A stretch of 64,000 nucleotides of DNA, taken from contig NZ_CP034855.1 of the NCBI RefSeq assembly GCF_005082585.1, positions 310,001 through 374,000 of the forward strand, written 5' to 3'. Numbering within the stretch: the stretch's first letter is position 1; the number at the start of each line of letters is the position of its first letter. This DNA comes from Buchnera aphidicola (Sitobion avenae) (GTDB lineage Bacteria > Pseudomonadota > Gammaproteobacteria > Enterobacterales > Enterobacteriaceae). Shown here piece after piece: positions 1 through 12,999 of the stretch. The position numbers and the translations under genes are program-made. The notes below the pieces were generated by a model, which had not been told where the DNA came from, searched no databases, and worked only from the letters and a program-made list of their open reading frames with translations.

Positions 1-705
1 ATGTCCTCCGTTAAAATTACTAATTAAGCAACCAGCTTCTCGTACTTGTAATTTTCCTGCTATAAAATTATTAGGTTCTAAATTAAAATCAAATAAGCAA
101 TCTATTTTTCCAGCTGCAACATAAGCAGAATCAAGTACCGTAGAACCAGTACATCTAAAAGAAATTCCATATTGAATTAATTTTTTATATATTTCAAAAT
201 AGGATAATGTTTCGTTATAAATTTTGTCAGGTAGATTAACAGCTACTGTAGTATATTTTAGAGTATTAATTTTACTACATCTAGTTCGGTATCCATTTAA
301 TTGTGAACCTTGTCCCTTTACAGCTGTAAATAAATCATTTTTTATAGGATCGTATATTACGGAAATTTCAGTTCTATTTTTTACAACAACAGCAATAGAA
401 ATACAAAAATATGGAAAATTTTTAATAAAATTATTTTTTCCGTCTAATTCATTAATAATCCACATAGTATTTTTTTCATTTTGTGTAAAAAAAACGTCTT
501 CATTTTTTTTTAAAATAATATGATGAGGATAAGATTTATGAATAATTGAACTAATTGTTCTATTTGCTTTATACATTATGTTTTTTATGAACATTTTATT
601 TTTTTCTACATCTTCTTTAATGAATTTATGTGTATCATAATTTTGAGTTATGATATTTCCTCCTCTCCTTACTGCACGAATAGCAATATTTAACATTGGA
701 TGCAT
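1..705 (-). CDS. suhB: SuhB, inositol monophosphatase family protein (3' end cut off), degenerate active site
   Basis: The minus-strand frame starts with an ATG at 705 and reads MHPMLNIAIRAVRRGGN, which matches the N terminus of enterobacterial SuhB. It stays open for 235 codons to the window edge, so roughly 30 C-terminal residues are missing. In E. coli SuhB has two roles: inositol-1-phosphatase, and NusA-linked cofactor of rRNA antitermination and ribosome assembly. Residues expected to bind Mg2+ are altered here. The usual EE pair after the first beta strand reads KK, the DPLDGT motif reads NELDGK, and the WD of the last ligand motif reads NN (in EPNNFIAG). The fold and flanking motifs (YDP, GQG-QLNGYR, RCTGSTVLD-AYVAAG) are kept. 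I infer a protein without phosphatase activity that may keep its RNA-related role. Identity is certain; the functional reading is inference. Confidence 0.93.
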   Translation of the reverse strand, partial: MHPMLNIAIRAVRRGGNIITQNYDTHKFIKEDVEKNKMFIKNIMYKANRTISSIIHKSYPHHIILKKNEDVFFTQNEKNTMWIINELDGKNNFIKNFPYFCISIAVVVKNRTEISVIYDPIKNDLFTAVKGQGSQLNGYRTRCSKINTLKYTTVAVNLPDKIYNETLSYFEIYKKLIQYGISFRCTGSTVLDSAYVAAGKIDCLFDFNLEPNNFIAGKLQVREAGCLISNFNGGH

Positions 706-936: not shown

Positions 937-2037
937 ATGAAAAAAAATATTAATATATTTAATATTTCAACATCTAAAATTAATTTATTAGACTTAAATC
1001 GTCAAGATCTAAGATGTTTTCTTATTTCTTTAGGAGCTAAAAGTTTTTGTGCAGAGCAAATTATGTATTGGATTTATCATGATTACTGTAATGATTTTAA
1101 AAAAATGTTTAATATTAGTATTAAAATAAGAAATCAATTATATGAAAAATCTTATATATTTGCAGCAAAATTTATAGAAGAAAGAGTATCTTGTGATGGT
1201 ACAATAAAGTGGATTACTTCGATTAATAATCAAAAAATTGAAACAGTTTATATACCAGAAAAAAAACGTTCTACTCTTTGTATTTCTTCACAAATAGGAT
1301 GTCCGTTACAATGTCATTTTTGTGCTACCGGAAAAGAAGGTTTTCAACGTAATTTAAAAGTTTCTGAAATTATTGCTCAAATTTGGCAAGCAAATAAAAT
1401 GTTAAAAGAAAAAAACATTACAAAAAATATTACTAATATCGTTTTTATGGGTATGGGTGAACCTTTATTGAATTTGAAAAATGTTGTGTCTGCATTAAAA
1501 ATAATTTTAGATGAATATGGTTTTGGCTTATCAAAACGTCGTGTTACTTTATCTACTTCAGGTATAGTTCCAGCATTAGATAAGTTGAATAGTATGATTG
1601 ATGTTTCTTTAGCAATTTCTTTACATGCTCCAAATAATTATATTCGAAACATGATTATGCCTATTAATAGAAAATATAATATTGACTCTGTTTTAAAGTC
1701 TGCATTTAAATACTTTAAAAGTTCAAATGCCAACCGAGGTGGAGTGACAATAGAATATGTTATGCTAGATGGAATTAATGATTCAAATAAAAATGCTCAA
1801 GAATTAGCTTTTTTATTAAGGAAAATACCTAGTAAAATTAATTTAATTCCTTGGAATTCTTTTGTCGGTTCATCTTTTTTATGCAGCGATATTAATCGTA
1901 TTAATATTTTTGCAAACATTTTAAGAAAAAAAGGATTTACTGCAATGATTCGAAAGAATAGAGGACAAGATATTCATGCAGCATGTGGACAATTAACTAG
2001 CGGCATGAAAAATAGTCTTAAAAAAAAATTTGTTTAA
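937..2037 (+). CDS. rlmN: Dual-specificity 23S rRNA/tRNA adenine-C2 methyltransferase RlmN
   Basis: This radical-SAM enzyme methylates C2 of A2503 in 23S rRNA and A37 in some tRNAs. The 366-residue protein is slightly shorter than the E. coli one (384). It has the CxxxCxxC 4Fe-4S motif (C122, C126, C129), the resolving cysteine in TLC (C115) and the methyl-carrying cysteine in AACGQL (about C350). Motifs MGMGEPLLN and LSTSG bind SAM. It is the first of a same-strand run rlmN-ispG-hisS-glyA. A run of nine A near the stop codon lies in a lysine tail and should be harmless. Radical SAM methyl synthases of this kind are reduced through flavodoxin, encoded by fldA in this window. Confidence 0.97.
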   Translation: MKKNINIFNISTSKINLLDLNRQDLRCFLISLGAKSFCAEQIMYWIYHDYCNDFKKMFNISIKIRNQLYEKSYIFAAKFIEERVSCDGTIKWITSINNQKIETVYIPEKKRSTLCISSQIGCPLQCHFCATGKEGFQRNLKVSEIIAQIWQANKMLKEKNITKNITNIVFMGMGEPLLNLKNVVSALKIILDEYGFGLSKRRVTLSTSGIVPALDKLNSMIDVSLAISLHAPNNYIRNMIMPINRKYNIDSVLKSAFKYFKSSNANRGGVTIEYVMLDGINDSNKNAQELAFLLRKIPSKINLIPWNSFVGSSFLCSDINRINIFANILRKKGFTAMIRKNRGQDIHAACGQLTSGMKNSLKKKFV

Positions 2038-10419: not shown

Positions 10420-12999
10420 TTAAAAACTTTTAAAACTTAAATTTCTTAATAAATTCATAATCCATTTTAAGCGTAAATAATCATTTTCAAAATTTAAAAT
10501 AAATTTTATTTTTTTTGAACTTTCCATTTTCCATTTACTTGGTTCTTCTTTAAAAATTTTCAGCAAATATTCAACATTTATAGAAATTTTATTATTAAAT
10601 TCTATTACACCGATCTTGTTATTAGATTTAATAGATTGAATACCAATTTTTTTTGCTATTAATCGAATTTTAGAAATTAAAATTAAATTTTTAGCAAAAT
10701 CAGGTAATTTTCCAAATTGATTAATTAATTCACATTTTATTTCTTCTATTTGTTTCTCATTTTTAGCATTTGAAATATTCCTATAAAAAAATAGTCTTGT
10801 ATTAACATCTACTATATAATTATCAGGTAATAAAGAAGATGCATGCAATTCAATTTCCAATGATTTTTTTAAAAATTCATTTTCAGATAAAACTTTTCCA
10901 CTTTTTAGTAATTTAATTGTATTGTTCAATAATTTCATATATAAAGAAAATCCTATATTTTTTATATGTCCACTTTGTTCTTTACCTAATATTTCACCCA
11001 CTCCTCTAATTTCAATATCTTGATTAGATAGAGAAAAACCACCTCCGAAGTTATCAACTGATGAAATCGCCTCCAATCTTTTTTTTGCATCTGAAGTAAT
11101 TTTATTAAAATTATTCACAATAAATAAAGCGTATGCTTGACGATTCGATCTACCAACACGCCCGCGAAGTTGATGAAGTTGAGATAGTCCAAAATGATCA
11201 GAATTTTCAATAATAATCGTGTTTGCTCTTGGTATATCAACACCACTTTCAATAATTGTCGTACAAATTAAAACATTAAACATATTGTTACAAAATTCAT
11301 TCATGACCTTTTTTAAATGAATATTCTTCATTTTTCCATGACCTATTTTAATATCAGCTTCAGGGATCAGTATTGATAATTTTTCAGCAATATTAATAAT
11401 ATTTTTAACTTTATTATATATATAATAAACTTGGCCACCTCTTGATATTTCACGTAATATTGTCTTTCTTATTAATAAAGGATTATATTCTTGAATAAAA
11501 GTTTTAATAGCTAATCTTTCAGCTGGAGGTTTTTCTATAATAGATAAATCTTTTATGCCAGTCATTGCCATATTTAAAGTGCGAGGTATAGGTGTGGCTG
11601 TTAAAGTCAGTATATCAACATTAGAATATATTTTTTTTATAATTTCTTTATGACTTACACCAAATCTATGTTCTTCATCAATAATTAATAATCCTAGATT
11701 ATGCCATTCTATTTTTTTAAATAATAGTTTATGAGTACCTATTAAAATATTAATTTTACCATTTTGAGTGTTTGTAAGAATTAAATTTTGTTCCTTTTTT
11801 GTTTGAAATCTAGACATTATATTAATGATAACAGGCCAATTAGAAAATCGTATTTTAAAATTTTTATAATGTTGTTGTGCTAATAAAGTAGTTGGTACTA
11901 AAATAGCCACTTGTTTATTGTTAGATACAGCTACAAAAGAGGCTCGCATTGCAATTTCTGTTTTTCCAAAACCTACATCACCACAAATTAAACGATCCAT
12001 AGGAATGGATTCAGACATATCTTTTAGTACAAGTTTCATTACTTTATTTTGATCTTCGGTTGTTTTAAAAGCACAATCATTACAAAAATACTCGTATTTT
12101 TCTTGATATTTTTTAAATGCAAATCCCTTTTTTGATGCTCTTATAGCATAAATTTGTAATAATTGTGCAGCATGATCATAAATAGTTTTTCTGATTTTAT
12201 TTTTTTCTTTATTCCAATCATCACCACCCAATTTATGAAGAGGAGCATTTTCTATTGAGGTCTTATTATAAGGTGAAATAAGATGCAGATACGAAACGGG
12301 TACATATAATTTATCTCCTTCTGCATATGAAATAATTAAATATTCAGATTGAATACTGGCTGTTTTTATCATAGTCAATCCCTGATATCTTCCAACGCCA
12401 TGTTCAATATGTATAATGGGATCATTTAATATGAGTTGAGATAAATTACTTTTTTTTAGGACATTAATTTTTTTTTTTTCAGAAGTGTTTTTATCATTAA
12501 TCAAAACTGGTAATAAATCTCTTGTGCAAATATATAAAAGATTGTTTTTTTTATCTAAAAACCCATTTTGGAGCTCTTCTATCATATAGAAGTAATTTAC
12601 TTTCATACTAATATCAGTAGTTTTTTTTATATATTTTGGATAAATTTTATTCCTTATTAAAAAATTTAAAATTTTTTTTAAAGATTCTTCTTTTTTCAAA
12701 GAAAATATTATTTTTCCTGAAAATGAATATAAAAAAGACATTAATTTATTAATGTTTTTTTGATTTTTAATATTATAAAATATGCTTAATAATCTTTGGT
12801 ATTTAAAATTATCAGCACTTTTATTTTTTAAAATGTTGTTGTTTATAATTTTCATAAAAGAGTATTTCTTTAAAAAAAAGTAATAATAGATCTTCAATAG
12901 ATATTGTTTTAACCATAAGGATATGATTACTATCATATCGTATTTTTTTATAGTATTAAAAAAAATATTTTTAGATAATTTTATTGAATTTATATTCAA
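10420..12999 (-). CDS. mfd: Transcription-repair coupling factor Mfd, lacking the N-terminal UvrB-like module
   Basis: Mfd is an ATP-driven translocase that dislodges stalled RNA polymerase. The 859 residues are about 290 shorter than E. coli Mfd (1148). The RNA-polymerase-interacting domain starts at about residue 195 (IIHIEHGVGRYQG). Walker A GDVGFGKT lies at 340-347, the DEEH box at 441-444, and TATPIPRTLNMAM, RGRVGRS and the C-terminal domain follow. The UvrB-homologous region that recruits UvrA in E. coli is missing, and residues 1-60 are lysine- and tyrosine-rich with no clear match. A run of twelve A (12468-12479 on the complement) sits in the weakly conserved stretch before the polymerase-binding domain and is in frame. 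I infer that polymerase release is kept and repair coupling lost. Confidence 0.93.
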   Translation of the reverse strand: MNINSIKLSKNIFFNTIKKYDMIVIISLWLKQYLLKIYYYFFLKKYSFMKIINNNILKNKSADNFKYQRLLSIFYNIKNQKNINKLMSFLYSFSGKIIFSLKKEESLKKILNFLIRNKIYPKYIKKTTDISMKVNYFYMIEELQNGFLDKKNNLLYICTRDLLPVLINDKNTSEKKKINVLKKSNLSQLILNDPIIHIEHGVGRYQGLTMIKTASIQSEYLIISYAEGDKLYVPVSYLHLISPYNKTSIENAPLHKLGGDDWNKEKNKIRKTIYDHAAQLLQIYAIRASKKGFAFKKYQEKYEYFCNDCAFKTTEDQNKVMKLVLKDMSESIPMDRLICGDVGFGKTEIAMRASFVAVSNNKQVAILVPTTLLAQQHYKNFKIRFSNWPVIINIMSRFQTKKEQNLILTNTQNGKINILIGTHKLLFKKIEWHNLGLLIIDEEHRFGVSHKEIIKKIYSNVDILTLTATPIPRTLNMAMTGIKDLSIIEKPPAERLAIKTFIQEYNPLLIRKTILREISRGGQVYYIYNKVKNIINIAEKLSILIPEADIKIGHGKMKNIHLKKVMNEFCNNMFNVLICTTIIESGVDIPRANTIIIENSDHFGLSQLHQLRGRVGRSNRQAYALFIVNNFNKITSDAKKRLEAISSVDNFGGGFSLSNQDIEIRGVGEILGKEQSGHIKNIGFSLYMKLLNNTIKLLKSGKVLSENEFLKKSLEIELHASSLLPDNYIVDVNTRLFFYRNISNAKNEKQIEEIKCELINQFGKLPDFAKNLILISKIRLIAKKIGIQSIKSNNKIGVIEFNNKISINVEYLLKIFKEEPSKWKMESSKKIKFILNFENDYLRLKWIMNLLRNLSFKSF

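Follow-up and report, generated by a model that had tools for sequence, protein, structure and literature searches.

In the stretch of DNA analysed here, a window of 64,000 nucleotides (G000:C1:310001-374000) from a Buchnera genome of 648 kb, the gene suhB keeps an open reading frame while its product, a relative of the Escherichia coli SuhB protein that is both a Nus factor and an inositol monophosphatase, has lost three of the four metal ligands of the enzyme. On the evidence of sequence comparison, the SuhB of the window is probably no longer able to assemble the metal site and would be maintained as a structural component in the ribosomal RNA (rRNA) transcription complex. We infer that the protein is without phosphatase activity and that it serves a Nus/rRNA function in this organism. 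An earlier note on this DNA had proposed that a catalytically dead SuhB is maintained for such a role, and the proposal is supported by the recurrence of ligand loss in other small-genome genera and by the retention of the NusA repeats, NusB, boxA and boxC.

The suhB gene and its altered active site

On the minus strand, the suhB frame runs uninterrupted from an ATG at 705-703 to the window edge; the complete gene (G000:C1:309911-310705 plus stop) encodes 265 amino acids, of which the final 30 codons lie outside the window. The features concerned, in window coordinates, are the following.

1..705, minus strand: suhB, codons 1-235 of 265, with a match of 124.3 bits (cut-off 27) to PF00459, the inositol monophosphatase fold family
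574..576, minus strand: codon of M44 (E. coli SuhB D44); D44 retained in 0/36 congeners
502..507, minus strand: codons of K67 and N68 (E. coli E67 and E68); E67 and E68 each retained in 0/36
436..453, minus strand: former motif A, N-E-L-D-G-K, window residues 85-90 (E. coli D84-P-L-D87-G-T89); D87 is the sole ligand left
67..72, minus strand: former motif B, N-N, window residues 212-213 (E. coli W211-D212); D212 retained in 2/36

Orthology with SuhB is indicated by NF008027 (the NCBIfam equivalog for inositol-1-monophosphatase), which is the best-scoring NCBIfam family even though the whole protein (260.6 bits) and its window part (247.6 bits) stay below the cut-off of 332 that E. coli SuhB exceeds with 575.5 bits. 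Among solved proteins, chains of E. coli SuhB come closest, and the nearest named relatives are from Buchnera aphidicola. In addition, a profile built from Buchnera sequences and E. coli separates SuhBs (>130 bits) from CysQs (<70 bits) in the small genomes examined. Compared with E. coli SuhB (b2533), the window protein shows 46% identity in a structure alignment, the same predicted fold over 235 residues and a shared start, MHPMLNIA; unlike E. coli SuhB, it lacks E67, D84, T89, D212 and D44, has a residue other than leucine at 254, and carries cysteine in place of R184.

In E. coli numbering, the substitutions at and around the active site are D44M, T66K, E67K, E68N, D84N, P85E, T89K, W211N and D212N, with D87 unchanged. 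Taking E67, D84, D87 and D212 as the metal ligands, as established for the inositol monophosphatase family, one ligand (D87) is left. The two-metal mechanism of this family requires E67, D84, T89 and D212. The alteration of three of four metal positions claimed in the earlier note is thus what the alignment to E. coli SuhB gives, as are the changes from DPLD to NELD, from WD to NN and from the T of DGT to K; its reading of the EE pair as KK was right as to the loss and one residue off as to identity, since TEE has become KKN and the pair itself KN. The same seven residues are carried by the database cluster P0001 (3 sequences from 4 contigs, 99% identical), which offers no independent proof because it is flagged as encoded by the window itself.

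Conservation of the loss within the genus

Across a sample of 36 congeneric genomes, suhB is present in every one and all 36 frames are open, in line with the open frame reported earlier for the window. E67, D84 and T89 are retained in 0/36 of these genomes, which excludes a sequencing error in one strain, a possibility that the earlier note had raised and that ligand mapping across Buchnera now settles; D212 is retained in 2/36 and D87 in 35/36. The replacements in former motif A are themselves conserved (N84 in 34/36, E85 in 35/36, K89 in 33/36), and L86 and G88 are retained in all 36, giving a loop consensus of NELDGK(N/K)NF whose fixation in the genus argues for constraint on the altered loop itself.

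This fixed new form would also be expected if SuhB had been rebuilt for a new function that has nothing to do with rRNA, through a different partner or a non-canonical activity. Such a rebuilding is unlikely, given that the E85-K89 pair is no general feature, different replacements being found in the loop of most orthologues from other symbionts, so that a common new function is not indicated, and that the rRNA partners and leader signals described below are retained.

At residue 184, the window protein and 25/36 congeners have cysteine, and arginine is found in 0/36; it has been suggested that replacing R184 by alanine makes the SuhB dimer more stable (PMC6614801).

CysQ as a matched control and selection on SuhB

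CysQ belongs to the same PF00459 fold family, is encoded in the same genomes and is exposed to the same AT and mutational pressure as SuhB, but differs from it in retaining DP[LI]DGT and WD, which are kept in all 48 sequences examined (33 from the genus and 15 others, with 7 further matches taken for CysQ left out). The EE pair of CysQ was found by a simple pattern in 40/48, the remaining 8 being unassigned by that pattern. Because CysQ keeps its site throughout in the same genomes, the loss of ligands in SuhB is specific and does not reflect genome-wide drift. The same control bears on whether some phosphatase activity might be left with a reduced metal site: the near-constant D87 and the invariant L86 and G88 speak in its favour, yet with E67, D84, T89 and D212 gone from SuhB while CysQ keeps both motifs without exception, residual activity appears very improbable.

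SuhB is under strong purifying selection. A single-ratio codon model gave end-of-run omega values of 0.071 with the 36 SuhB sequences and 0.093 with the 33 CysQ sequences, and the median pairwise ratios of nonsynonymous to synonymous substitution rates (dN/dS) were 0.25 for SuhB (414 pairs) and 0.33 for CysQ (460 pairs), the pairwise method underestimating dS in AT-rich genomes, so that only the comparison between the two proteins is used. Relaxed selection over the whole of SuhB, which the earlier note had listed as a possible objection, is ruled out by these values, which lie below those of a paralogue that keeps its site.

The same result weighs on the possibility that SuhB is merely decaying in reduced genomes and that ligand loss is early drift before the gene breaks. 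Symbiont genomes do lose genes; in 15 small genomes no SuhB was detected (13 have no PF00459 match and 2, G134 and G355, have CysQ only), suhB is among the genes lost in Calaphidinae plus Phyllaphidinae Buchnera (PMC11188193), and in one genome, G346, it lies in two frames. Set against the unbroken frames of all 36 congeners, an omega below that of CysQ, and a genus-averaged retention of 1.00 (rounded) at the non-catalytic residues W81, N91, Y117, N136, Y194, E222 and G224, such decay is decidedly improbable as an explanation, more so than a new function.

As to CysQ itself, cysQ is broken by a TAA in one congener (L068, G001:C1:594496-595118), suhB being open in all 36, and it was not detected in the congeners G019 and G021, both of which have an open suhB.

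Ligand loss in other genomes of the family

Among 80 small genomes of the same bacterial family, presumably those of host-restricted symbionts, a PF00459 match was present in 74 and a SuhB orthologue in 72, one of these (from G346) being partial owing to its split frame. All four core ligands are kept in 0/72 of these small-genome SuhBs; none is kept in 22, one in 37, two in 11 and three in 2. Mid-size genomes (0.7 to 3.6 Mb) keep all four in 6/24, the frame of one of them, G181, spanning only residues 45-267. Large genomes keep all four in 19/20, a set that was drawn from the top-scoring part of the match list and is biased towards intact sites; in 30 further large genomes from outside that top list, all seven checked positions are kept in 30/30. 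The exception among the 20, G138 (locus L264, on a contig of 4,171,146 bases), has a SuhB with E67K and the other six checked positions kept, which is perhaps a first step of ligand loss.

Outside Buchnera, genus g48 is the clearest single case: a 3.6 Mb genome is intact and three genomes of 0.7 to 0.9 Mb are missing 1, 2 and 3 ligands, so that the loss occurred within the genus. In genus g70, the SuhBs of G104 (3.3 Mb; L244) and G225 (2.1 Mb; L245) have one ligand and no ligand left, respectively, out of four, despite modest genome reduction. On a quick SuhB tree from which the active-site columns were left out, at least 8 changes are needed, a count that rests on weak support, with 2 changes forced by well-supported branches, 46/85 inner branches left open, and long AT-rich branches that may be drawn together. 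Ligand loss was probably reached several times in small-genome relatives.

Loss is also concentrated at the active site. Of the 150 positions that do not vary between 21 large-genome SuhBs (the first 20 plus E. coli), the six active-site positions 44, 68, 84, 87, 89 and 212 are less retained in small genomes than the other 144 (genus-averaged means 0.22 vs 0.56, Mann-Whitney p 0.0036); E67 is absent from this list, being K in one of the 21. Of the six, D87 alone is retained at an average level (0.57).

Nus partners and rRNA leader signals

In the rRNA transcription complex of E. coli, SuhB is described as a hub (PMC10250234), and its partners NusA, NusB, boxA and boxC are also found in the genome of the window. 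NusA is encoded by a frame of about 500 amino acids with two acidic repeats, AR2 included; NusB is present; boxA matches start 118 nucleotides upstream of the conserved motif close to the 5' end of 16S, and 85 nucleotides upstream of the corresponding motif of 23S; and the boxC upstream of 16S has the sequence TCTGTGTGGGCAC, exactly as in E. coli rrnB.

Among small genomes more widely, two NusA repeats occur in 52/65 with SuhB vs 2/15 without (Fisher p 2e-6, kinship not corrected), the two genomes that lack SuhB and have both repeats being G166 (8% contamination) and G355 (190 contigs). A comparison of 30 leaders, for which one 16S copy per genome was taken although five genomes had two, and again with kinship not corrected, gave a mean boxC mismatch to E. 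coli of 1.2 in 20 leaders from SuhB-containing genomes vs 3.3 in 10 from genomes without it; boxC was exact in 8 of the former and not found in 5 of the latter, where it was scored as 4 mismatches. In genus g60, the sole genome with SuhB (G296) has an exact boxC and four genomes without SuhB differ at the boxC 5' end; despite its SuhB and exact boxC, G296 has no detectable NusA repeat.

The contrast between the active site and the surface that contacts NusA, as envisaged in the earlier note, is covered at residues 251 and 254, which bind AR2 in E. coli (K251 and L254) and both lie beyond the window edge. Residue 251 is K or R in 36/36 congeners; residue 254 is T in 27/36 and L in 0/36. This last result counts against the reading of SuhB as a catalysis-free Nus subunit, and several other observations do so too. 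Kinship and genome size both confound the partner association, because the genomes without SuhB are mostly the smallest and are clustered in few genera; 13/65 small genomes with SuhB have fewer than two detectable NusA repeats; boxC has 3 mismatches in 5/20 leaders from genomes with SuhB; and boxA and NusB are still present in several genomes without it. Moreover, suhB of G346 (L142) is split into pieces of 226 and 72 amino acids by a frameshift or an assembly error, the 25th mid-size genome, G129, has both NusA repeats although nothing in it matched E. coli SuhB at 1e-20, and the retention of D87 in 35/36 congeners means that SuhB may still bind some metal.

Side observations on the partners concern nusB in G134, G135, G316 and G244, which is apparently short or broken: all four have open frames of about 100 amino acids, G134 shows stops in another segment of its match, and the match of G244 contains one TAA. 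In G094, G219, G363 and G198, the NusA frames span 414-453 amino acids and match the acidic repeat once, weakly; of these genomes only G198 has SuhB.

Comparison with E. coli and a possible evolutionary course

By analogy with E. coli, a SuhB dimer would bind NusA and, in the leader of the nascent rRNA, the linker between boxA and boxC; it would let NusB and S10 load onto boxA, and the resulting complex would protect rRNA transcription and aid 30S assembly; inside the host, the phosphatase activity would lose its value and the Nus function would remain needed. E. coli suhB mutants without phosphatase activity still complement (PMC6614801, PMC4807359), and they likewise separate catalysis from Nus function; in E. 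coli, the main role of SuhB is thus known not to depend on its enzyme activity. These mutants were made in the laboratory, whereas the probable separation in Buchnera is natural, involves several ligands and is common to 36/36 genomes of the genus. The most likely reading is that Buchnera and its relatives hold a natural, recurrent version of the separation already published for E. coli.

More tentatively, and with somewhat less than even confidence, the loss of SuhB catalysis may be a repeated, near-regular step of host restriction, in which a phosphatase needed only outside the host is given up, the Nus role stays essential and SuhB has, on several independent occasions, become purely an accessory protein of RNA polymerase. 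Under such a course the loss can begin early, the 4.17 Mb G138 being already without E67, and within the window's Buchnera lineage the metal site would have been re-fixed later as NELDGK, possibly with lysine replacing the metal charge; a salt bridge might occupy the place of the metal.

Neighbouring genes

The divergent neighbour of suhB, given for context, and a more distant gene are listed below.

937..2037, plus strand: open reading frame of a gene that we take, from its sequence, to be rlmN-like
10420-12999, minus strand: mfd-like open reading frame of 859 amino acids, seemingly missing part of its N-terminal half; the E. coli protein is longer, with about 1148 amino acids

Implications

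In published work, suhB is listed as inferred ancestrally essential in Enterobacteriaceae (PMC11481867), and a Buchnera metabolic model omitted it as unconnected to biomass (PMC2649895). A literature search of limited reach, and hence a weak negative, found no description of a dead SuhB active site in Buchnera or other symbionts. The question raised is what SuhB is for, and its answer in E. coli came from mutants; evolution seems to have repeated that experiment, with CysQ as a matched control in the same cells. If the interpretation of SuhB as a catalysis-free Nus subunit is true, the database name inositol-1-monophosphatase would be misleading for symbiont SuhBs, metabolic models should not give these proteins the phosphatase reaction, and symbiont SuhBs would constitute ready-made catalysis-free forms for structural and rRNA studies, whose retained residues allow asking which contacts of SuhB with NusA, RNA and polymerase are indispensable.
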